A stretch of DNA of 64,000 nt from Branchiostoma floridae (Eukaryota; Chordata; Leptocardii; Amphioxiformes; Branchiostomatidae). Shown piece by piece: positions 37,623 through 56,965 of this stretch. The notes under the pieces were generated by a model. The model saw only the letters and a program-made list of their open reading frames with translations. It made no database searches and was not told the origin of the DNA. Made by a program: the position numbers and the translations under genes. Each line of letters opens with the position of its first letter. Within the stretch, counting starts at the first letter, position 1. Location: contig NC_049996.1 of the NCBI RefSeq assembly GCF_000003815.2, positions 13,737,297 to 13,801,296 of the forward strand. Reading direction: 5' to 3'.

Positions 37623-40600
37623 CTGTACAAACACAAGAAATGAATAAAAAAATGTACAGTTACTGTATGGCACTAATAGCCATAGTTTTCATGTTCATAA
37701 AATGATCACCGGTACCTCTTGATAATGAAGCACCTGCTTTCTTGCCTTCAAACAAAGACATCTGTTGCGTTTGATGGTGTCGTACTCACTGGTGCTGAAG
37801 TAGCCATCTCTGGTGATGTAGTTCCCATCATTGATGGTGGAGTGGTCATCACTTCTGTTGTAGTCGTCATCACTTCTGGTGTAGTTGTCACCACTTCTGG
37901 TGTAGTCGTCATCGCTTCTGGTGTAGTTGTCACCACTTCTGGTGCAGTCGTCACCTTTGGCGGTTGGGTTTTGATCTCTGGTGGGGTAGTTGTCATCTCG
38001 CGATCTTTGCCGAAGACTGTGAGACGCTAAAGTGTCGAGTGTGAGAATGCGAGTATAAGAACGAGTTGTACAGAAAATCATACTACATAGACATTTTCAG
38101 GATCTCATTACGTGCTATGCCTATGACATGATGAGTTCTATGCTTAGCTCAGGAAGCAAACAAAGTCATTACTGTGACAACTCCATGTATACACCATGTC
38201 TTACATGTTGTCATGGCAAATGAAGTTGCTCTCTCCTTGAGCGACCAACCGTACACCAAGTCTCCAATCGTGCAACATGTCCCGTAAAAACGTCAATAGT
38301 GTGTGTATAATCATCACTGCAAAGGTCAAGACATTTGTGGTATGGCAGAAAAAATCAGGAAACAACAAAGTAAAAGAAGGATTTTGACCCACAAGTAAGC
38401 AACCAGTTACTTGTATACACATTTGGCAATTGATGTCATACAATGGGTATGTTCCGCACAGGTGAAACTGTTAGGTTAAGAAATGTGTCTTACTTTCGGT
38501 GTTGTAGGCAATTGCATGGCCTTTGATAATCCAGCCAAAGGAGGGAGGGCGGTGGTTCCCGAAAGGCGTGCTCGCGGTGGAGTGTTCTTCCCAGGACGTG
38601 ACTCGTTCCAATAGTTAGGGGTTGACATCCTGGATGGCTACGGTATTGAAAGTATGGAGACATGTTTTCAATTCAAATGCATCAACTTTTATAAGCAAAG
38701 CAATTTCGCTATGCTAGCAGAATGTCTTAATGTTTTGGTTGCCTGAACCACATTTTAGTATCAGTGTCTGGTCTGGACTGGCCTAGACACTGAACAACTG
38801 ATCAGAGGGGCAGAGGACAGAGCCAGATGGGCAAAGATCACTGCTGATGGATGTCGTGGAGCCCCTACGACCACTGTGGGTACGAGCCGTGAGTGAGTGA
38901 GTGAGTGAGTGAGTGAGTGACAGTATCAATGGATGAATAGACTCATATGAGGGATTATGCGTTTATTAACACAGTCAATCAAGTTTGTTTTTAAGGACAA
39001 TGAATAAAATTAATGATAATAGATAAATATCATAAGACAACAATGTGATGTCTCATAACAAAATAAAGTACTGAGAGACTGACCGGGTGAGTCTCTGCCT
39101 TGTTCCCCACATTGGAGAGGACATACATGCCGACACAGGCTCCTGCACCGACAATGGCGACCAAAACAACACTGGCGATGATGGAACGGACCACGCAAGG
39201 GCGGCGAAGCTTTTTCTTGAACCTTCTGAGGAGCCGACGAATGCCTAAAATTTCCATTGAAATATATAATTTCTGTCTATTGTACTGTCAATGTACAAGA
39301 AATACAGTTATATTTATTTTTAAGTGATAGACAACAATCAGTTGTACTCTTGCTAATAGTTATAGTAACGATGTGGTGCATGATAAGAAAAAATATGTTG
39401 TGTATTGGTAAGAATATCTTTACAAATTGGATGTCTGTGCCTCTTTTGCTGCATTATCGTTACTATTGCACTATCATTCATTACTATGTATAGTAGTATA
39501 TCCAAATTGATCAAAATGCAAGCATTGGAAGTATTGAAACATTGAGATATAACTATTTCAAAATCTTTGTTTAAATAATCCACAATATTCTATCACAAGA
39601 CTGTCCTAGATTGTTTTACTATACACATGTTACTTATATATGATGCAATAAAAATAGTTAATTCAAATTTCAAAAAGTAATTAAAAAAGCAAAGTTACCT
39701 CCTTTTCGTTTCTGTTGTCGCAACGCAGCAGGTACATACAACTGGTTTTTCATGAGACCAGTGTTGTTGCGAATTGCAGTGTGTGGTTGTGGGGTGTTCG
39801 GCAGAGGTCTACCGGTTGACTGGCCGCCACGACTCTTTTGTTCACCAGCCTGTCGCATGTCGTTGCGGCTTGCAGTGTGTGGTTTTGGGGTGTCCGGCAG
39901 CAGTCTACCGGTTAACTGGCCACGTTTTTGTTCACCAGCCCGTCGTGTGTTGTTGTGGTTTGCAGTGTGTGGTTTGGGGGTGTTCGACAGCGGTTTACCG
40001 GTTGACTGGCCACGTTTTTGTTCACCAGCCCGTCGCATGTCGTTAATTTCATCTTCGTCGATGTAGTTGTACTCATGTTCGTCACTATCGTCATTGTGGC
40101 CTATTGTAATAGAACATACATAGATGTAAGTTAGACATCCAGGTAATAAGATACACCAAAAAGTAGTTACTCAAGCAACTGGATATGATTTTGGAAACGG
40201 TCAGATGTTTCAACTGCGATCCAGCAGTTTTCGTCAGTGACACTGAAGTGATCTGGAAGAAACAGGTCTTTAATACTCTAACTATGAATGAAGACAATTT
40301 CAGATGTCCAATAGGAAACGTTGTAAGACAATTCAGACAGAAGACAATTTTGATTCCAAAGAAAACAAAGGTAAGGCAAAGTCAAGCTGAAGAAAATTTG
40401 GATTTCAAAGGATAGCAAGTCTGTCGTATATCGTTGATTTCATCTTCCTCGATGTAGTTGTGCTCATGTCCGTCGTCGTCGTCATTGTGACCTATTGTAA
40501 TAGATGATATTTTTTGGTGAAAGTTGCCTTCAGATACTTTGTTACTGGTTGATTTTGTATCACGAATTCGAAACGTCATACGTTTCCATTTCTAAAACTT

Positions 40601-44166: not shown

Positions 44167-44316
44167 TCAAGACTCTTGACAAATGTACCTTAGGTTATAA
44201 CCGCATGCAGTATCGTCCCACATAGGGGTATCCGTGGGTCCTGACCAGTATTGCACACAGTCGGAGGATTCAAACCATGCCTTGATACCCGAAGCAGGCT
44301 CTCCTGGATTCCATCC
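44167..44316 (-). CDS. Gene C CTLD exon 2
   Basis: Phase 0 exon with acceptor GTAAG. Reads [33 protein letters not shown] and stop. EPA replaces the EPN/QPD sugar-specificity triplet; WDD keeps an acidic residue at the WND site. All cysteines are present. Confidence 0.8.
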   Translation of the reverse strand, partial: GWNPGEPASGIKAWFESSDCVQYWSGPTDTPMWDDTACGYNLRYICQES

Positions 44317-47300
44317 CTTACCCGAAAAAAAAAGCAAAAAAGTCACTTTATTGTCAAGAAGTAACATTGCACAAATATCTTTGATATGGGTGTATCGTTT
44401 TCTATACTCCACTTCTGAAACCTAGTGCGCTGAGTAAAACGTAAACTATATGAAGCACTAACAATGATTACAATGACCTTGAAGCAAAATAGCACGATAC
44501 ATTTTATTTTTTCTAATAGCTTCACAAAAAATACTTTTTAAGAGTTGTTCTCTGACAAAAGGGAACATCACAGAGAAATATCCGAATTCAAGTTGTAATA
44601 GATTGCGTTTAACGAATGAATAAATACGTTAATTACATTAACCTTTAATTAACTAAAAAAAACTTGTCAGGAGAAACAGGATGATGCGGGGATAAAAGGA
44701 AAAAGAACTTTGTACGGAGAGGGGAAGTTCCTATTTGTATTCTGTCTTCACAAGACCTCTACTACATGTACTCTTTTGAGATGGCATCAAACAAAACGTG
44801 TTAACGTACCTGATAATGGTGGTCATGGTCATCTAGGCTAGATCCGTCTGCCCATAGCCAGGATCCAGATTCCTTCAATCCAATCCAGTACTTGGAGTCC
44901 TTTCCGTACTTGTTGACAATCACATTTCTCAGAGCGACGTCCAGTTCTTTCGTTTTCGGCATGGCTAGTGTGGCTCCCTCTCTCTCACAGTCCGCCTGCG
45001 CGTCTTCGTAGTCCTTTTCTTCAAGTCCAACCCGGATGCACGTTTGAGCAATTAGTTGATAGCCAGCTCTGCATGTAGCTGAAACAGTCACAGGAGTTTT
45101 TGGTCAGCGTTCATCCTTTTTGGATTTCCTGCTGCATGTGTATTATCCAGCCGGTATAGATGATCTTGTGCAAGTCATGCAAGTCTTTGAGTTACTTGAG
45201 TTGCTTTTAAAGCTGATTGAATATATATAACATGATCAACTTTCTGACTTCCAGATTGGTCATGACGTCGAGAAAGACGTGCTTGAATGTAGCAGCTTTT
45301 GGCAGCTTTTGAAAGTAATATTGTCAGAAATAACTTTCTGGAGGCTTATTCCTTGGTAGCCAAATGGTACAAAAGTTCAAATGATTTTGAGCAACCACTT
45401 ACCTTGCTATACAGCTTCAAAAAAGTGCACATCAACATACTAGCAGCTAAGATACTTGGTACAGAAAATTAAAAAAAAATAAATGAACGACTTAAGATAC
45501 CACCTTTGCAAGTGGGAACTCTTCCGCCCCATGTAACGTCCGCCTGGCAACTGATGGTTTTCGCACCCACAAGGTTGTATCCGTAGCCACAGGTGAAGTG
45601 CATTGATCCTCGGTACGCCGTAGAACCTGTCATGTGGCCATTGGCTGGAGGCACCAGTGGTGGGCATTGCACAGCTGAAACATAGAATCGTGATAAAGTT
45701 ATTATGCTTGAGAGAAAAGAAGAAAAGGTAACACTGTTGTGGCTGCAATATTGCATATTTCTTTTATACATGAAAACTTTACAAGCAGATGTAATATGGT
45801 GGACCCTACTAAACGTTCACTACTTTATTTCAGCAAGGTAGGATACATTGGTAGTTACAGACTCGAACTTGTAACATTTAAACTGGATCTTGATCTAAAT
45901 TGTCTTCAGAAGTTACCTGTACATGTTGGTGAACCTCCACTCCAAGTCCCGTCAGACTGACAGGTACGTGTTGAAGTACCGACCAGCTTGTATCCTGGGT
46001 TACAGGTGAAGGTGGACACGTCTCCGTAGGAGTTGGAGCCAGTCATGGCACCGTTTGCTGGGGGTTGCAGCTTTGTACATCTTACAGCTGTACAGAGAGA
46101 GACAAAATGCCATTTTGATTAATCTATGAAGAGTTTATATGGCATCTACACAGTTTCTGATCCTTTACAGACAGACATAATCTGGCTATATGCACTCCTT
46201 TCCTACATTTAAGCTATTAAACATCAAAGCCCTTAATACATGTACCTTGGCAAGTAGGGACCCTGTCACTCCATGTACCGTCTGCCTGGCACCTGATGCT
46301 TTCTGCACCTACAAGTTTGTACCCACGGTTGCAGCTGAAGTACGTCAATTCCTTGTAGGACTTGGTCCCTCTCATGATGACATTGACTGAAGGTTTCAGT
46401 GTCGGGCATTGTACAGCTGAAACACAGATTTCACATATGACAAAATCAACACCAAGCATATATCTTTACTAGGGAAGAAACCAACGGTCAATCTTAACCT
46501 TGTCATACGGAGCACAGAATTCACAAAACCATGTATACAGGATAGACATTGTATTGAACATTTGTTTCTTCTGAATAACATACCACTGCATGTTGGTGAT
46601 ATTCCGCTCCAAGTCCCGTCAGACTGACAGGTACGTGTAGAAGCGCCGACCAGCTTGTATCCTGGGTTACAGGAGAAGGTGACCACGTCTCCGTAGGAGT
46701 TGGAGCCAGTCATGGCACCGTTTGCTGGGGGTGCCAGCTGTGAACACTGCGGTGCGGTTGTCACCTGTGGCAGTGCGGTTGTCACCTGTGGCGTGTTTGT
46801 CACCCGAGGCAGTGTGGTTGTCACCTGTGGCGTGGTTGTCACCTGTGGCGGTGTGGTCGTCACCTGTGGCAGTGTGGTCGTCACCTGTGGCAGTGTGGCT
46901 GTCACCGGTGACAGTGTGGTTGTCATCCAAGGCATTTCCGTTGGTATCGCAACATCAAAACTGTTGTTCTATTTGGGTAAAGAAAAGTACAATCTATGTT
47001 TGTATCCTGCAAGTCAACAACGTAGCACAATGTAAAGGGACTGTTTGTGCTTGCAGGTGTAAATTTGTAGTTGTAAAATCAATATCATGTTAGATTTACT
47101 TACTTCAGTTGCAGTTATCTCCGACATTGATGCCAGAAACATGCTGGTTGCTAGATGTAGTCCGGTTGTTTTTGTTTTTGAGACAATAAAGGACGGCTTC
47201 GTCAAATCAACTGGCAGGTAGATTACAGTTGAATTGATACCTTTCACAGGCTTAGCAGTTGTCCAATTGCCTTCATCTGTCATCACAGCGGGCTATCAAA

Positions 47301-50300
47301 AATAGAGGTAATCTTAATCTTAGTTTAATCTCTCATTTCATAAACGGCAAAGATTACTGTTTAAGATTAAAGTAATTGTAGAGCAAAATAAATCTTCCCC
47401 CTCTGACTCTATTTTCATTTTATTTTTCCAGTTTAAAAGTAAACCTTATTTCCGAGAATGTCGCAAGAGTTCTTTCATTTTATTAAATTAAATTAGATTG
47501 AAACTCCTGCAAATTGTAGTAACAGGATGCTGCAAATTTTGGTGATTCAGTTGATATATATACTCTTTGATATATATGATTGTGGATGTATGTTGATTGA
47601 CTCATTGAATCTAATGTATAAGACTAACCGTGTTGATTGTCATTAGCCTTTCAGGTGTGGTAGTGAGATATGATATAGTTCCAGCGCCTATCGCTGCGGC
47701 CACTGCAACTGCGATGAAGATTAGCAGGTGGTAACTGGTAAGCGTCATTTTGCAGCTTGTGGCACTCCAACAACTGTTTCCTGTATCTTTGGGGTCTGTG
47801 ATAAATCAAACGGTTTGCATAAATGGTGTGCACTACATGCATGTGTCATTTTTATCATATTTACAGAGGTTCATATCAAACCCCTGGAACGATGCAATAG
47901 AGAATTATGAAGAAGGATCCGTTGGCAATGGTAAGAGAATATCAATCAAAAGTCCAATTGCTGCAATGACTGACCATGTTATCTATTCAATTCAATTGTA
48001 GTTGTGAGGGAATAATAAAATATACCGTGGTTTATGTTTGTTATAATGAATTCATATCACACTACATATAGTTATATATATCATATAGTGTTTGTTCAAA
48101 CTTGCTACATATATTATGATTATTTTGCATCCATTTAGCATACTTAATTAGAATCTTCTGTGCCACGACTCTCACATCGCTGTGTTAATTCATAACTAAT
48201 GCCTTTTTTGCACTATCATTGGGTAGTAGAGGAATGAACACTCATCTCTCTTTACCTTGTCGGAAGGCACCAGGCACATACATCTCATTGTACAGTAGGT
48301 CAGAAACGTTACAGCCTGCAGTTTTGGGGAGTATACATAGACAAACTGTTCATTAGAGCCCACTTTATAAGAATGCTACCTTACAAAGTGCAGTAACGAT
48401 AGTAATATGAACGTAAAAACAAACTTCTGCCTTTATTACCTTGTCGGAAGGCGCCAGGAACATACGTCCCGTCGTCCAGAAGACCAGGAATGTTGGAGTC
48501 CGTAGTTTTGGGGACTGAATCGTCCGTCTCTGTATCAGCCGGTTGTTGCCGTAGGTTGTTAATGTCATCACTGTCCAGATAGTTGTACACGTTCGCGTTG
48601 CTGGTGTTAGGGACCTCATTGCTGTCAGTCGACGCAATTTCGACCTTGATTTCTCCTCCTTTGGAAAAAGGACGAATAGAAATATTCAATACATGAATAG
48701 CTCGGGAATGAATAGCTTATGAATAGCTTAGTTTAATTGACTTAAAAGTATAGTAAAAGCCAACTAATTGCACAACGGATTACCACGCACATCTCTTAAT
48801 TGCATGGGATGCAAAAATCCTAAACAGGTGTGTTGCAGCTGGGTAACTTCGCATTGTTGCAACACCTGGATAATTGCAGNNNNNNNNNNNNNNNNNNNNN
48901 NNNNNNNNNNNNNNNNNNNNNNNNNNNNNNNNNNNNNNNNNNNNNNNNNNNNNNNNNNNNNNNNNNNNNNNNNNNNNNNTATAGTAGAAAGCAGCCCAAA
49001 CTGTGTGTGTGTGTGTGGTTGGGTAGGGGTGCACAGTTGGTAGAAATACTTAGATTTCTTTGCAGACAAAATGTCTCCACCGTGAAGAAGAGACTGAGGC
49101 CACTCGATATTTGATTTTAAAATGGCAGGGTATTCGTATAGATTTTTGCGACAAAAAAATATCACCAGTATCACTTGTAGATAAGGTCGTACCTGTATTG
49201 ATGTCTTGGCTTGGAAGTGGTGGGAGCGGGCGACGAGCTTTGTTGTCCCCATCGTTAGCCTTCTGATCTTTTTCCTTTGTTATCGTCGCCCTCGAGATAC
49301 CTTAAGAGCAAGGACAATGGGGTCACTGAACTGTAGATATGCAAAATCTGCAACTAAAATGTATGATGGGCGAAAAACTTAAGAGTTTGACAACATGTAC
49401 CTGTTGTTAGTAACTATGAAACACCTAATGTACAACCCGAGTTAATTGATTTTAGTTATATTATAATTGTTTTAGTTTTATGCAGACTAAATTCTAGGCA
49501 CTCCTTCATCATTAAGTGGCATCTCAATAAACTAAAGTCAAAGGCGAGGGGGGAGTAATTAGTATGGATACGGATGGACCGTGGTTAATTAGAAAATTGG
49601 ACAAGATTGCAGAAAAACGTACGTAGATGGAACAGTTAAGAGTATAAAGATCAGCAATGTCGTAGACCTCAACATTGATCGTAGACAGAATTACTGTAAT
49701 GACAATGTTTTATGAATTATACATGAATTTTAAGGTTGAAATGAAGTGAACATTCAGAATACGAAACGCACCTTCGCCATCTTCCTGTACTAATGCATCA
49801 GGCACCTTCTGGCATACAGGAACTGTGAGAACGCCCGTCCCCACAACGGCTGTCTGTCTATGTTGTTTTTCCTGTTCGTCGGTATGTCGTCGCTTGTTGA
49901 TTTCATCTTTGTCTACGTAATGGTACATGTGGATGTCAGGATCTTCATGGTCCCCTTTGCCAGCAGAGAGTGTTAAACTTAGCTCTCTACCTGCAAGGAG
50001 TTAAAAAAAGTACCATGTTATGAAACAGGAAACATTTAGTATGTGTAGACGAATTTATTTTGATAGAATGAAAGTTACACTAGTATCTACTATGGAAAGG
50101 GCTTTGAAAACAGAGTGTGTATGTGGTGTGTGTGTGGGGGGGGGGGGGGGGGCTGGGTTGCCTCTGAGGAGCAAGTTGAATGTTTCGAGAGGTAAATCTG
50201 GTAAAGACAAGATTTGTATAGCTTTTGAAGTAGTAGAATGCATCCTACCTGTTCTTACGTAGTGGTATGGGAGTGGTGGCAACGGGCGACGGGCTTTGTT

Positions 50301-50354
50301 GTCTCCACTATGCGCCATGTCCACCTGACAAGGATCCTTTTTAGTTGTGGTCAT
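44167..50354 (-). CDS. Gene C: type II CTLD receptor with long signalling-type tail
   Basis: Exons (5' to 3'): 50249-50354, 49772-49990, 49193-49300, 48440-48658, 47629-47795, 47104-47292, 46584-46968, 46246-46416, 45917-46087, 45504-45674, 44810-45078, 44167-44316. Phases match throughout; about 774 residues (794 with optional exon 48256-48315). The start MTTTKKDP is chosen because the longer upstream frame is broken by a stop in gene D. Four cytosolic exons carry two RRPLPPLP SH3 ligands and several tyrosine boxes. Then one membrane helix, an N-glycosylated linker (NWT, NST), a Thr-rich stalk fused to a CCP, three more CCPs and a complete CTLD. Most complete member of the minus-strand arm. 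Likely a cell-surface pattern-recognition or self/non-self receptor; ligand unknown. Confidence 0.8.
44810..45078 (-). CDS. Gene C CTLD exon 1
   Basis: A 269-base phase 1-0 exon, two codons longer than in D and E (DDHDHHYQ end). Reads [50 protein letters not shown]. Confidence 0.8.
45504..46416 (-). CDS. Gene C three CCP exons
   Basis: Exons 46246-46416, 45917-46087 and 45504-45674, each 171 bases and phase 1-1. They encode CCPs starting CPTLKPSVNV, CTKLQPPANG and CPPLVPPANG. The first and second have near-identical copies in gene E (62988-63158, 62663-62833); the third differs more from 62250-62420. Confidence 0.8.
46584..46968 (-). CDS. Gene C Thr-rich stalk plus first CCP
   Basis: Phase 0 in, phase 1 out (GTATGT). 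NNSFDVAIPTEMPW leads into about nine VTTTLPQ/VTTTPQ repeats, then CSQLAPPANG to PTC. Same length (385 bases) and about 98 percent identical to gene E 63320-63704. Confidence 0.8.
47104..47292 (-). CDS. Gene C extracellular linker exon
   Basis: Phase 0-0 exon of 63 codons with a GTAAGT donor. Contains NWT and NST N-glycosylation sites, and a hydrophobic/Thr segment (TGLHLATSMFLASM). Present in C, D (55068-55238) and E, absent from A and B. No known domain recognised. Confidence 0.7.
47629..47795 (-). CDS. Gene C transmembrane exon
   Basis: Phase 1 in (ATCACAG), phase 0 out (GTTAGT). DPKDTGNSCWSATSCKM, then the helix LLIFIAVAVAAAIGAGTISYL, then TTTPERLMTIN. Homologous to the A, B and D exons, with two cysteines just inside the membrane. 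Confidence 0.8.
48256..48315 (-). CDS. Gene C optional 20-codon cytosolic exon
   Basis: A phase 1-1 cassette with acceptor CTGCAG and donor GTAAAG encoding SDLLYNEMYVPGAFRQ, a duplicate of the 3' third of exon 48440-48658. It adds a YNEM tyrosine and a second YVPGAxRQ box. Gene D has a related segment near 56340-56400 with a changed box (FVPSAFRQ). Possible alternative exon. Confidence 0.4.
48440..50354 (-). CDS. Gene C cytosolic tail exons
   Basis: Four exons, all leaving in phase 1. 50249-50354: MTTTKKDP ending KARRPLPPLPYHYVRT. 49772-49990: MYHYVDKDEINKRR box and a KVPDALVQEDGEG end. 49193-49300: KARRPLPPLPSQDINT, a second SH3-ligand copy in which the tyrosine is serine. 48440-48658: VYNYLDSDDINNLRQQ box and YVPGAFRQ before the membrane exon. 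RPLPPLP is a well-known class I Src-family SH3 ligand; L-P-Y-H-Y-V fits the ITIM pattern. Confidence 0.7.
48880..48979. other. Assembly gap (100 N)
   Basis: Exactly 100 N in an intron of gene C, directly next to a MITE fragment related to 18070-18206 (starting at about 48747). ORFs drawn through the gap are meaningless. Confidence 1.
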
Positions 50355-50560
50355 CTTCGACCAAACAGCTGAGGACCTAGGGTACTGGAGGTCACTTCCT
50401 CCACGTGCGAGCTGTTCAGTCTTATGCAAATTAAAATGTTTGTAGGAATTTTGCTCGATGAAATTAATTCGATTCGACGGAGATCAGACGACAGGCCACA
50501 AGAGAAACCTGAATATGGCTTGAAATTGTGAGGAATGAGCATGAGCTCGAGAGACAAGCA
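50355..50560 (-). promoter_or_regulatory. Conserved promoter region of gene C (E-box and octamer)
   Basis: Immediately upstream of the start codon, alignable with 56966-57170 of gene D. Contains CACGTG at 50402-50407 and a perfect octamer ATGCAAAT at 50424-50431, both kept in D with the same spacing. An octamer suggests POU-factor control; inferred from sequence only. Confidence 0.4.
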
Positions 50561-53335
50561 CTATTTTTTAAAGCAGTAGTTAAAACATTTTGGCCTTTTG
50601 ACGTTGGTAAGCTGTAGATCTACCTCACATCTAGACTGATCTGGTAAATGATAATGAATAAACAATAATTTATTAATGACAATTCATAAAATTGTCCATG
50701 GAATACGTATCACTTATTCAATGTTTTATGAATAAATTTAAGGAGCTTGTCCTTGTCTCAATCATGTGATGAAGAACGAAAACTAGCGCGTAGCAAAACG
50801 AGAGAGCATGTTATGTTACAGTTGGGAGCGATTTTCGATGCGCCCAAAATGAATTTCGACCTTTTTGACATTGTCGCACTGCAGCAACATTCTAATTTCT
50901 AATGCAATTAAATATTGTTTCGCATCAGAGTAACACGTGGTACTAAGTAGTTGCCTAAGGAATGCATCTAACCATTGATCAAAGAAAATAATTCTTTTAT
51001 CCAACCTTCTTTGTACCTTTCGTACAGTCAGTGAGCAGCTGTTTTGATCATTTGTAATTACTTTGATACGATCTGCATTCAATCAAGAAATGAATTGGTC
51101 TGCATTGCAAGCAGAAACATTTGGTAAACATGGCTGTTTGCAAAAAAACAAAACGTTATTTCTCTTAGCTTGAGAAGTAATCTGAGTGGGTCTAAATCAT
51201 AGTTATCATGGCATATTTGGAACATTATTTAGTTTTTTGTGGCATGAATTTTAAGGGAATTGTATACTGTATCTTGTATCCAAGAGGGGTCTTGTATTGA
51301 TATCAAAACAAGAAGCGAAATAAAGATACCTTTTCTGTCTGCTAAATTAATCAACATTATTGAGTTTTATCAATATCTATTGAATTTCTGTACGTATTCC
51401 TTTTGTAGATGGGCCCGTTCAATCGATAGTCCCAAAAAGAAAGGTCCAGATGGTTCTATATTCTACAAATAAAGGAATAGGAATTTGGCTTGCAAACAAT
51501 CAAGAAAAGAGTGAGCATATTATTTAATGGGCTTCTTCAAACCATCCGAGCCCTTCAACGGGACACAAACTGATATGAAGAAATTGTTCACAGGTATCAA
51601 TGAGAAAATGGTATCAAATCTTAGCCAAAATAAAGTATACATAGTACATGTAAATGTTTTGTTCTAACAAGTTTTTTTATCCATTTAGATAAAAATATGA
51701 AATATATGAAAGAAAAGTATTGATGAGAACGAGAAAGTAATATTTCGATGATATCAACACCTTTATTATGCTTTTCAAGATTGTTCCTACCAACTATTTT
51801 CGTATAATTTCTAAAGTAAAAGATATTAAGCACTTCTTTCACAATACATTTGATCTATCATGTAATCAGTTTATGTAGGTATAATCCACACCTGGCATTT
51901 TCAAGGATAGAAATTGTCTATTTAAAAACATTTTATATATAAACTGCCATTGTTCTTATCATATTGTCTTAATCGTAATGCATGAACTCTAAATTCACTA
52001 GTTTGTCAATTTGTGTGGATCAGTGAAGGAGGAAACCTTCCAAAGTCACAATCGCATTATAATTGTTGCTTACAATTTTAGGAACCCTGGCAAGTTATTG
52101 TAAAATGCTATTGGGAAGTTCATTCCCTTTTGTTGGAATAAACGTTTAAAACTAATTACACAAATTAGCACTGACGAATGTTCTGGTATTTTTACATGTC
52201 CTGACACAACGCTAATGAAATGTCCTGAAATTTTTTTACTTTGTTTACGTGACCATTTACCAAGGCTGTCACAAGATCTCTGAGTTCTTCCTTAAAACAT
52301 CAACATGTGCGATCATTCCACATTGGTGTTAATGTCATTCGTAAATCATCATTTTATATCATCATTAGATATTTGCAACCTTTGTTATTTCATCTCAGCA
52401 TACGTAATACAATAGCCTGAATTTTACTAGATGTTTTTCTTCTATCAGCAAATTCCAAAGGAGATAAATTCTCTGGCCAGGGACAGAGGCCTGAGGACTT
52501 TCATCCACTTCACGAGAAAACCTTCCCTAGTCACAATCTAATTACAATGGTTGTTTACGGTTTCTGCTACCCATACTAATCAGTGTGAAGTGTTATTGAC
52601 ATGCTAAAGCTACTCCTTTTTCTTGTAATAAACGTTAAAAATTTATAACAATTATATAACTGACAAATGAACTGGATTTTGTTTACATTTTTTAAGTAAT
52701 ACTAATCAAATGTGCTTAATAATCTTACTTCCACAGTGATATTGTATATATAATTTTATAAAGATTACAAGATCTTCAAGTTGTTCCATAGAGAAATTAC
52801 ATCTAAAATCATTCCACATTGCCGTTAATGTTAACGTTATTCCTTTAATACGCTCATATTAAATGGTAACATCATGATCGAAGCATAATACTTCCTCTGA
52901 ATGACAAAAATAAAGGAAAAATATATGTAACAACAGTTTGAAAACGTTAACATAATATATTGTATGATATTGGGACTTAGTCATAAGTTTTCAAGTTATT
53001 AAGTGAACAAATAAAAAAGTTACCTTCATACAAGTTTTCTGAACGAATAGATTACAAGACTGAAACAGCAGCTACAACGACGCCATTGTCAGTATTGATA
53101 TGACAAATAAAGCAATGGCACCACATGCAAGTAAGCAAAGCATACATGTAGAAAAGAAAAGAAACACATTAGGCCGTATATATGACATGCCATGCCTCAA
53201 CTCGCAAGAAAGAAACCAAAACTGGAAATTTAAGTGAACACAACCTACTTGCACTGGCCAAGTTGGTGCATCTCCTATTAAGCGTATCACCAAGCTTTAA
53301 GCTAGTTAAATTGCTATGTTTTTGAGCAGGGTGTT
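50561..53335. other. Intergenic C-D spacer, no gene seen
   Basis: AT-rich, paralogous to 57171-60330 in the same order (for example ATCCAAGAGGGGTCTTGTAT at 51278 and 57848), showing that the duplicated unit includes the spacer. No coding exon recognised. Confidence 0.5.
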
Positions 53336-54016: not shown

Positions 54017-56965
54017 CTGAAACAGTCACAGGAGTTTTCGTCATCATTTATCCCTTTTGGATTTCTAGCTGCACGTGTCTTATTTGGCCGGTTTAAATGA
54101 TCGTACGCAAGCCAAGCAAGTCTTTGAGTTACTTTTAGGCCTTTAAAGATGATCAAAAAATCAATTTTCTGACTTTCGGACTGGTCATGCCGTCTAGAAA
54201 GACGTGATGGAATGTAGCAGCTTTTGAAAGAAATATTTTCAGAAATAACTTTCTGGAGGCTTATTCTTTTGTAGCCAACTAGTACAAATTTCAAATGATT
54301 TTGAGCAACCACTTATCAAGCACATCGTACACATCAACATGCTAAGATACTTGGCACAAAAAATAAATGAACGATTCATGATCAATGCAATTGGCTACAT
54401 GCAATCGGTCAATCTTAAACTTATCATACAGGGGGCAGAAAACAAAACACAAAACCATGCACTCTGATGTATACAAAGCTGTGTGTTGTATCTTTTTTCA
54501 ATTATTGTCAAACCATTTTTCTTTTCTGCATTACATACCTTTGCATGTTGGTAATTTTGCGCTCCAAGTCCCGTCAGACTGACAAGTACGTGTAGAAGTA
54601 CCGACCAGCTTGTATCCTGGGTTACAGATGAAGGTGACCACGTCTCCGTAGGAGTTGGAGCCAGTCATGGCACCGTTTGCTGGGGGTGGCATCTTCAAAC
54701 ACTGCGGTGCTGGTGTCGTCTTTCGAGGTGTAGTTGTCATCTGGGGCATCGTGGTTGTCAAAAGTGACAGGGTAGTTGTTCCCTGGGCCGGTGTGGATGT
54801 CACCCGTGGCAGTGTGGTTGTCATCCAGTTCAACGTGGTTGTCATTTGGGGCAGTGTGCTGCTCACCATTGACAGTGTGGCTGTGGATGTCACCCAAGAC
54901 AGTTCCGTTGGTATCAAAACATCAACGCTGGTGTTCTGTTGAGGTAATCAAAATGCAGAATTTCATCTGGTATCCTTTAAGTCATCAACACAATGTAAAT
55001 GGGTTGTTTGTGCCTGCATATATGAATGTGTAGTTGTAAAACCAATATTATCTTAGACTATACTTACTTTATCTGCAGTTGATGATTGAAACATGAAGAT
55101 TGCAGACACGTAGGTTTTTGTGACATGTACATTCAAGGATGGCTTTGTAAAATCAACTTGCAGGTAGGTTGCAGTTGAATTGATACTTGTCACAGGCTTT
55201 GCAGTTGTCCAATTGTCTTCATCTCCCATCACAACGGGCTGTCAAAAATAGATAATGTTCCAGTTTAACACTGAATCTTACTTTTAAGAACGAATTGAAT
55301 TGGTTGTGACCTCATACATGAACTTCTGGTAAGTTTTGCAAGAGTTATATGAGATGTTCTTAAATTCAAAGTCCTGCAAAATCTATTAATAGGAAAGACC
55401 TCCCTCACTGTTTTCATGTCCATTGTCCACTTTAGTGCTCTCGTAAATCTAAGGATGAACAACTAACATTGTCTTTTATATGAAATCCTCGTATGATATG
55501 TAATTTTCGTATTGCCAACTTTTGCAAGAGTTCTTTCATTTGGTTAAATTCCTGCAAAATGTTTTAACATATGCAATGTTTTGGTGATTCATTTGTATAG
55601 CCATGAATTAAGATGCATGTTGGTTGACTTATGGATCTAGATCTAAGGTATAAGACTAACCGTATTGGTTTCCATTTGCCTTTTAGGTGTGGCAATGAGA
55701 TATGCGACCACGCTAATTCCAACGCCTATCAAGAAGGCCACGGAAACAGTGATTATGGTAATCAGGCAGCAACGATTAAACGTCATCTTGCAGCTTGTAG
55801 CAATCCAACAAGTGTTTTCTGTATCGTTGGTATCTGCGAGCAATCAAACAATTTGCATTAAATTCTGTGTACTATATGTCGTTTTCAACAATATACATAC
55901 TATTAGATTGATATTAAGCCTACGTCGCTACACAAATATTAATGGAAAAGTATCAACATTGTAGTGGTAGTAATTTTTGTGTAATTTACAAACGAAACAT
56001 CAACTAAAAATAATAATTTGAATTGCAATCACTAGCCATGTCATTTATGCACTTCAGTCGCATTTTTTGGGGGAAATTTTGAAATACACTGCTGTTTGTT
56101 TTTCATTTGCAGTGATATACATTGCCCCTAAATTCTTCAAAATATATCTAATGAAACCTCTCATGTAGTGTTCCTTAAAACTTGCTACATGTATTAGGAT
56201 TACCTTTCATTAATCTAGCATACTTCATTAGAATTTGCTGTGCCATGACTATCACATCGTAGTCTTTATCTATAACTAAAACCCCTCTTTTTGGTACTAT
56301 CACTTGGTAGTACAGGAATGGACAATATCTCTTAACCTTGTCGGAAGGCACTAGGCACAAACATTGCGTTGTACAGAAGGTCAGAAATGCTACAACATGT
56401 AGTTTTGGGGAGTATACAAAGACAATCTGTTCATTAGAATCAACTTTATAACAAAGCTACCTTACAATGTGCAGTAACGATAGCAACATGTACGTAAAAA
56501 CAAGCCTCTGTCTTTACCTTGTCGGATGGCGCCAGGCACGTACATGCTGTTGTCAATAAGGCCGGTAATGTTGGAGTCCTTCGTTTTGGGGACTGAGTCG
56601 TCCGTCCCTGTATCAGCTGGCTGTTGCCGTAGATTGCTAATGTCATCTCTGCCCACGTTCGGGTTGCTGGTGTTAGGGACCTTCTGGCTGTCATTCGACG
56701 CAATCTCGACTTTGGTTTCTCCTCCTTTGGTAAAGAAAGACAATAAAAACACTCAATAGCTAGGGCAACCTTTTTTTCCTTGACCTTACTATATAGTTTC
56801 AATTGAGTTGAAAGTACAGTAAAACCCAACTAATTGCACAACGGATTAGCGCATCCTACCTGTTCTTACGTCTTGGTATGGAAGTAGTGGCAACGGGCGA
56901 CGGGCTTTGTTGTCTCCACTATGTGCCATGTTCATCTGACGCGGATCTTTTTCAGTTGTGGTCAT
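53336..56965 (-). CDS. Gene D: type II CTLD receptor with reduced tail and one CCP
   Basis: Exons: 56860-56965, 56518-56724, 55661-55833, 55068-55238, 54539-54935, 53754-54016, 53336-53482. About 487 residues. Compared with C it lacks the two middle cytosolic exons and three CCP exons. The SH3 ligand is damaged (RRPLPLLP), and the VYNYLDSDDI box of the second tail exon is shortened to VGRDDI, losing its tyrosine. One LPYQDV tyrosine motif remains. The membrane helix ([16 protein letters not shown]), linker with NWT and NST sites, Thr-rich stalk with one CCP, and a complete CTLD are intact ([23 protein letters not shown]). It looks like a signalling-reduced paralogue of C rather than a pseudogene. 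Confidence 0.75.
54539..54935 (-). CDS. Gene D Thr-rich stalk plus single CCP
   Basis: Phase 0 in, phase 1 out (GTATGT). [14 protein letters not shown], degenerate MTTTLPQ repeats, then [10 protein letters not shown] to LPTC. No further CCP exon lies between this and the CTLD. Confidence 0.75.
56805..56860. other. Deletion junction in gene D tail region
   Basis: The left side matches gene C at 48740-48782 (a MITE terminus, CCAACTAATTGCACAACGGA) and the right side matches gene C from about 50241 (GCATCCTACCTGTTCTTACG). About 1.45 kb present in C, including two cytosolic exons, is absent between them. The breakpoint lies within the MITE sequence. Confidence 0.65.

Follow-up and report, generated by a model that had tools for sequence, protein, structure and literature searches.

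A candidate two-point Src-family kinase dock encoded by repeated exon cassettes in a lancelet Sushi-lectin receptor tail

The window analysed here, a 64,000-nucleotide stretch of the Branchiostoma floridae genome (C18:13737297-13801296 of 513 Mb), contains on its minus strand gene C, a predicted lectin receptor gene with an N-terminal tail. In the tail of gene C and in those of most of its tandem sisters, one to three two-exon cassettes may form a two-point dock for Src-family kinases, a reading to which we assign, from sequence, a probability of roughly 0.45. The first exon of a cassette encodes a putative class I SH3 ligand, usually RPLP[PL]LP, and the second exon encodes a putative di-tyrosine module, YxY[VIL]D, that is followed by acidic residues. 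In the proposed mechanism, the SH3 ligand would hold a Src-family kinase on the resting receptor and open the kinase. Clustering of the lectin/Sushi ectodomain would then let the kinase phosphorylate the di-tyrosine module ∼30 residues further on, and the phosphorylated module would bind the SH2 domain of the kinase, giving two-point binding, or recruit other SH2 proteins. This reading is based on the combination of a class I ligand, a KIT-like module and a FAK-like layout in which the ligand precedes the tyrosine. Binding, phosphorylation, the order of these events and their activating or inhibitory direction are what we infer from the observed exon structure, conservation and candidate SH3 domains.

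Exon cassettes in the predicted cytoplasmic tail

Gene C was modelled as a chain of 12 minus-strand exons that have AG/GT ends, agree in phase and close with a single stop codon. The predicted product of 769 residues is ordered as cytoplasmic tail, membrane span, stalk, four Sushi domains and C-type lectin domain, and thus has the N-terminal tail, single span and C-terminal lectin domain of a type II C-type lectin receptor. The ectodomain assignment is based on Pfam matches to Sushi (four copies, E 4.4e-42) and Lectin_C (E 6.1e-15). In a hydropathy scan of the first 331 residues, the top four 19-residue windows coincide at one span from about residue 235, and 235 residues precede the most hydrophobic stretch, LLIFIAVAVAAAIGAGTIS, which is encoded by the membrane-span exon (47629..47780, minus strand; mean Kyte-Doolittle 2.38). 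The N-terminal tail is predicted to be cytoplasmic because the span is followed by the N-glycosylation sequons NWT and NST of the stalk exon (47104..47292, minus strand) and by the Sushi and lectin domains. The same arrangement argues against an N-terminal end outside the cell and agrees, in the gene model, with the intracellular placement assumed in the initial annotation. The start codon of the model is a choice: among the 14 exons of the first type, four (those near 145, 115, 114.9 and 93 kb; positions in kb are those of the joined C18 region) lack the first ATG.

The tail is encoded on the minus strand by four exons. E1 (50249..50354), the start-codon exon in the model, encodes 35 residues plus a G and ends at a phase 1 donor. 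E2 (49772..49990, 219 nt) holds the di-tyrosine module, E3 (49193..49300, 108 nt) is the second SH3-ligand exon, and E4 (48440..48658, 219 nt) contains a second di-tyrosine module and the peptide YVPGAFRQG. The boundaries of E3 are exactly those annotated initially for the second-copy exon. E2, E3 and E4 are all of phase 1-1. Since every junction between E1 and E4 lies in phase 1, E2, E3 or E4 could be duplicated or lost without a frame break. E1 had originally been taken to end at YHYV. Its donor is instead ACAG/GTAGGA, which yields ...LPYHYVRTG in phase 1, compatible with E2, and AG/GT is present at this place in 19/19 homologous exons (judged by eye). The alternative upstream donor, TAC/GTAAGA, has phase 0 and would drop the V of YHYV. 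An E1 that ends at YHYV is therefore ruled out by both the phase and the homologous donors.

The E1/E3 and E2/E4 exons form homologous pairs. E1 and E3 both carry KARRPLPPLP, which continues as YHYVRTG in E1 and as SQDINTG in E3, and the two RPLPPLP copies (50268..50288 in E1 and 49212..49232 in E3, minus strand), followed by YHYV and SQDI, are encoded as the initial annotation proposed. Because the two exons are homologous, these copies count as one event. RPLPPLP is near the class I form preferred by Src-family SH3 domains, and the tail peptides KARRPLPPLPYHYV and KARRPLPPLPYHYVRTG are candidate SH3 ligands. Class I ligands follow the pattern +xΦPxΦP (PMC10453029). A chance origin of the ligand was rejected on the basis of two shuffling analyses. 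When the 235-residue tail was shuffled 20,000 times, one or more R-x-Φ-P-x-Φ-P matches arose in 0.22% of cases. Moreover, R.[LIV]P.[LIV]P has five matches in the six frames of the window, three in exons of this family and two near 7.6 kb, whereas dinucleotide shuffles of the window (n=60) gave 0.85 on average and never more than 3. A literature search pairing RPLPPLP with SH3 found no paper.

The motif search in other lancelet receptors that the initial annotation had called for was run genome-wide, with the peptide of exon 1 as query. Of its 19 matches, 17 lie within 100 kb of one another on C18 and the other two on C14. An exon-by-exon search of C18:13737297-13901000 and 10 kb of C14 recovered the same 19 SH3-ligand exons. 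RxxPxxP is present in 18/19 of these homologous exons and +xΦPxΦP, the class I pattern, in 17/19, and the SH3 core has a proportion of synonymous changes (pS) of 0.33 and of nonsynonymous changes (pN) of 0.08, with a pN/pS of 0.25.

The di-tyrosine module of E2 is YHYVDKDEI (49899..49925, minus strand), and its copy in E4 is YNYLDSDDI (48561..48587, minus strand). Both match the KIT/PDGFR-type pattern YxYΦD. The last proline of the ligand and the first tyrosine of the module are separated by 29 residues in cassette 1 and by 31 in cassette 2 of gene C. Twenty homologous di-tyrosine exons were compared, a set that leaves out E5-like matches and a partial E4 match near 99 kb with no di-tyrosine part. 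The strict form YxY[VIL]D is found in 16/20, the exceptions being located near 126 kb, 73 kb and 40.5 kb and in the neighbouring gene D, and a looser form in 19/20. In the 19 looser modules, the first tyrosine is kept in 18, the second in 18, V/I/L in 19 and D in 17, an acidic residue lies two residues past the D position in 19/19 and isoleucine occupies the ninth position in 17/19; these column counts are partly set by the row selection, [YH]x[YF][VILM]..[DEK][DEK][IVLS].

Judged by their positions in the array, exons of the SH3-ligand type and of the di-tyrosine type alternate for the most part. Gene C, the C14 copy and the tails near 67-65, 84-82, 93-91 and 145-142 kb have two cassettes each. 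Three cassettes are found near 116-113 kb, and single ones near 127-126 kb and near 73 kb.

Potential partners of the ligand are encoded in the same genome. Src-family-like SH3 domains, close to that of c-Src and marked by AL[YH]DY, an acidic RT loop, DWW and PSNY, were identified at no fewer than four loci, an assignment that is based on the SH3 domain; two of them are split across two exons. Among 11 SH3 matches at E<=1e-6, six fall at the four Src-family-like loci and five at four other loci, whose SH3 domains are less Src-like.

The tyrosine adjoining the SH3 ligand

LPYHYV of E1 (50256..50273, minus strand) matches the pattern [SIVLT]xYxx[IVL] of the immunoreceptor tyrosine-based inhibitory motif (ITIM), as the initial annotation stated, and lies in the predicted cytoplasmic tail. 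The SH3 ligand is above chance, but the ITIM fit is not: an ITIM-like hexamer occurs in 34% of 20,000 shuffled 235-residue tails (mean 0.40). The first 331 residues of gene C contain three such hexamers, namely LPYHYV, one at the membrane and one extracellular. Because the SH3 ligand itself supplies the leucine at Y-2, the fusion requires only a tyrosine with V, I or L at +3.

The residue after the ligand is Y in six, F in six, S in six and H in one of the 19 homologous exons, and the ITIM pattern is confined to six exons, all within one lineage of seven. The codon of the fused tyrosine has a pN of 0.46, the highest amino-acid change rate among the 17 codons compared, and the +3 position has a pN of 0.45. 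Within the Y lineage, which is spread over two contigs, the tyrosine is kept in 6/7 rows and the valine in 7/7, with synonymous changes at both positions; the Y-bearing copies read YHYV in gene C and YQDV in the other five. The tree support of this lineage (94/92) is just below the tool's own mark for a firm fork, and the tree was built from exons with 60-base flanks, the variable codon included. In sequence terms, the fused tyrosine is most likely an optional, lineage-specific addition to the SH3 ligand. The proposed ITIM is kept as a pattern in one lineage, where LPYxxV may have a role of its own, and not among the homologues as a whole. Phenylalanine in six homologues, including after all three ligands of the gene near 116-113 kb, suggests that an aromatic residue can be kept there without phosphorylation. 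Serine does follow the ligand in E3, but it is not peculiar to gene C: it is present in 5/5 exons of the exon-3 clade (support 100/100) and in one separate case near 142 kb.

If phosphorylated, the fused tyrosine could recruit SH2 proteins, and an SH3 domain bound to RPLPPLP may cover the neighbouring residue. CD3-epsilon provides an analogy to E1, with one tyrosine common to an SH3 ligand (PxxDY) and an immunoreceptor tyrosine-based activation motif (ITAM), and phosphorylation of this tyrosine abolishes Nck binding (PMC2661883). The reported effects in the other direction diverge: according to one study, the shared tyrosine is blocked from phosphorylation when the SH3 domain is bound, and in another, proline mutations abrogated ITAM phosphorylation, which would make the motif helpful (PMC2661883). 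At a further CD3-epsilon site, the RK motif, Lck is recruited via its SH3 domain prior to phosphorylation, and displacement of the SH3 domain by PxxP raises Lck activity (PMC8068026). Unlike gene C, a predicted type II lectin whose ligand pattern is canonical class I, CD3-epsilon combines non-canonical ligands with an ITAM in a receptor-complex chain. The initial annotation pictured a kinase loaded beside its own target. CD3-epsilon and the receptor MAFA are precedents for docking next to or overlapping a target tyrosine, but the block of phosphorylation concluded in the one CD3-epsilon study is the opposite of such loading, and the overlap in gene C may by analogy act as a switch rather than as a loading site.

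The proposed dock, its alternatives and known systems

Several observations weigh against the two-point dock. The flanks of the ligand, GDNKA..P, are constrained like the SH3 core (pN/pS 0.22 versus 0.25), and the core of the exon-3 clade has zero synonymous changes; for both reasons, conservation points to a constrained exon more than to a constrained SH3 core. All 19 exons are related copies that include one identical pair, and the homology search itself weights the motif. Class I ligands are common to many SH3 proteins, and the YxxΦ of the module is also a sorting-signal pattern. The likeness of YxYΦD to KIT and PDGFR is a match of pattern only. Cassettes are also broken up in places. Gene D keeps one ligand exon and has lost the module from its E4; in the exon search, the ligand exon near 129.7 kb stands alone with no module exon beside it, and the gene near 99-97 kb (span near 98.5 kb) has a partial E4 and no ligand exon. 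The equal constraint on the flanks and the 16/20 count of the strict module are the reasons why the dock is assigned no higher probability than that given above. The Src-type ligand of the initial annotation is accordingly sustained by its class I pattern, predicted cytoplasmic position, conservation and candidate SH3 domains, and is weakened by its flanks.

A docked Src-family kinase could instead phosphorylate LPYHYV itself, which would recruit a SHP/SHIP-type phosphatase and make gene C inhibitory. The LPYHYV/LPYQDV matches of the two-contig lineage, with their synonymous changes, would fit such a role, and lancelet Lck, an ITIM-type receptor and SHP and SHIP homologues have been reported (PMC8211107). 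A comparable pairing is described for MAFA, in which an ITIM occurs together with a PAAP motif, a binding site for Lyn and other SH3 proteins (PMC3061320). We nevertheless regard an inhibitory gene C as quite improbable: 13 of the 19 homologous exons lack the pattern, six carry a non-phosphorylatable phenylalanine, shuffled tails produce the pattern readily, the leucine at -2 belongs to the SH3 ligand, and a bound SH3 domain may mask the next residue, as was concluded in the CD3-epsilon study cited above. The tail could also serve trafficking. Lectin receptors frequently internalise their ligands, and YHYV, YHYV and YNYL, three YxxΦ sites before the span of gene C, could be signals for clathrin adaptors while the ligand recruits an endocytic or cytoskeletal SH3 protein for the uptake of lectin-bound particles. 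V, I or L occupies +3 in 19/19 modules, from rows chosen to have V, I, L or M there. A bare YxxΦ signal would leave the retained second tyrosine (18/19), aspartate (17/19) and later acidic positions superfluous, and we consider a trafficking tail unlikely.

A non-kinase adaptor could also be the partner of the SH3 ligand, for instance a protein like p85, Crk, Nck or cortactin, and any nearby kinase might then phosphorylate the modules. The five SH3 matches at less Src-like loci are compatible with this arrangement, and the closeness of RPLPPLP to the Src-preferred class I form argues against it; we judge it improbable overall. Class I ligands are found across SH3 families and are not peculiar to one of them (PMC10453029).

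An ITAM in the gene C tail was considered and rejected on the usual ITAM spacing, with YxxΦ sites 28 and 111 residues apart. A hemITAM is a single YxxL with acidic residues ahead of it; in the gene C modules, acidic residues come after the tyrosines.

The two-point dock resembles parts of several known systems. In FAK, Y397 binds SH2 domains as part of a two-point binding. A class I-type ligand, RALPSIP, is the Src SH3 site shortly ahead of this tyrosine (PMC6528292), as in the gene C cassettes. FAK contains a single copy in a kinase, whereas gene C repeats the ligand in a receptor tail together with YxYΦD. The juxtamembrane letters of KIT, FLT3 and PDGFR are YxY[IV]D. In KIT, two tyrosines one residue apart, Y568 and Y570, recruit Src-family kinases via SH2 (PMC7409304), and the gene C modules share this spacing. 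The receptor kinases differ from gene C in the juxtamembrane location of the motif and in that it is not paired with an SH3-ligand exon, and homology is not claimed.

Among inhibitory C-type lectin receptors and their like, MAFA is similar to gene C in being type II with a cytoplasmic tyrosine motif and an SH3 site, and differs in that its described SH3 motif is PAAP and not RPLPPLP (PMC3061320). Group V C-type lectin receptors of the vertebrate NK complex have a single lectin domain on a stalk (PMC3061320). Gene C falls outside that group with its four Sushi repeats ahead of the lectin domain. Group V receptors are not known to have any other ectodomain, and MAFA, whose tail is short, is not known to contain Sushi domains or repeated exon cassettes. 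In lancelets, the Lck-associated membrane receptor BbLcLRR has ITIM or ITIM-like tyrosines that are phosphorylated by Lck; its ectodomain is of the leucine-rich repeat type, unlike that of gene C, and the word "proline" is absent from the main text of the report, which describes no proline-rich ligand under that word (PMC8211107). A literature search on lancelet lectins with ITIM, CCP, Sushi or cytoplasmic terms gave, among the matches listed, none that describes such a tail in its title or abstract opening. An SH3 site with an ITIM in the lectin-like MAFA and a lancelet Lck with an ITIM-bearing LRR receptor are thus already known from these reports. Gene C differs from the known systems in a class I pattern that is repeated with a di-tyrosine module in phase 1 cassettes, in its Sushi-lectin ectodomain and in the varying cassette number.

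A more elaborate version of the dock would be a modular, exon-encoded kinase clamp in which cassette number (1 to 3) tunes the kinase load and the LPYxxV of one lineage is a separately evolved, CD3-epsilon-like SH3-or-SH2 switch; we consider it doubtful. If the two-point dock is correct, lancelets, which branch near the chordate base, would have lectin receptors that use a canonical SH3 ligand, encoded repeatedly in exon cassettes, to carry their kinase. Cassette number and the residue at the fused position (Y, F, S or H) would then form a natural series along the array, in which the coupling of SH3 docking and tyrosine phosphorylation in immune-type receptors could be tested, and the array would bear on how this coupling arose in chordates.

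Sister genes and further features of the array

The C18 array contains ten two-exon lectin domains arranged head-to-tail on the minus strand between 44 and 138 kb of the joined region, with nine membrane-span exons on the same strand. From exon 2 on, exons and introns alike differ by 0-2% between gene C and the next-but-one gene (window 47500-50600 versus 64200-67400 of the joined C18 region), whereas exon 1 and its upstream sequence differ by 9-12% and intron 1 by 4%. This pattern suggests that a duplication or conversion took place recently, with its breakpoint close to intron 1. It was rejected as proof of selection, given that exons and introns diverge equally from exon 2.

The neighbouring gene D has a homologous first tail exon (56860..56965, minus strand), and the exon search found no homologues of exons 2 and 3 in it. 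In its exon 56516-56722 (minus strand), the YxYΦ part is lost through an in-frame four-codon gap. A sibling tail exon at 39670-40170 (minus strand) contains YNYIDEDEI, YVPAALRQ and three internal repeats, KPLSNTP, RLLPDTP and RPLPNTP, two of which match RxxPxxP. A second sibling module, HNYIEEDEI, lies at 40418-40492. The repeat exon was left out of the 19 SH3-ligand exons; both sibling modules were counted among the di-tyrosine exons. A distant copy on C14 near 9.316 Mb (L050:4180-4480), kept apart from the exon and module counts, encodes YHYVDRDDI and YVPSALRHG. No SH3-ligand exon was found within the 10 kb read at this locus, so the SH3 ligand may have a narrower distribution than the tyrosine module.

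A tyrosine peptide, YVPGA[FIL]R, closes many di-tyrosine exons and is encoded in the window at 48444-48464 and 48260-48280 as well as in homologues along the array. A possible extra tail exon, E5 (CNVSDLLYNEMYVPGAFRQ; 48256..48315, minus strand), is open and of phase 1-1; it may be a relic of an E4 copy and is outside the 769-residue model. The ectodomain of gene C is encoded on the minus strand by an exon for the Thr/Pro-rich stalk and Sushi 1 (46584..46968), by one exon each for Sushi 2 (46246..46416), Sushi 3 (45917..46087) and Sushi 4 (45504..45674), and by the first (44810..45078) and last (44167..44316, with the stop codon) exons of the C-type lectin domain. The plus strand of the joined C18 region carries additional lectin exons at positions below 29 kb.

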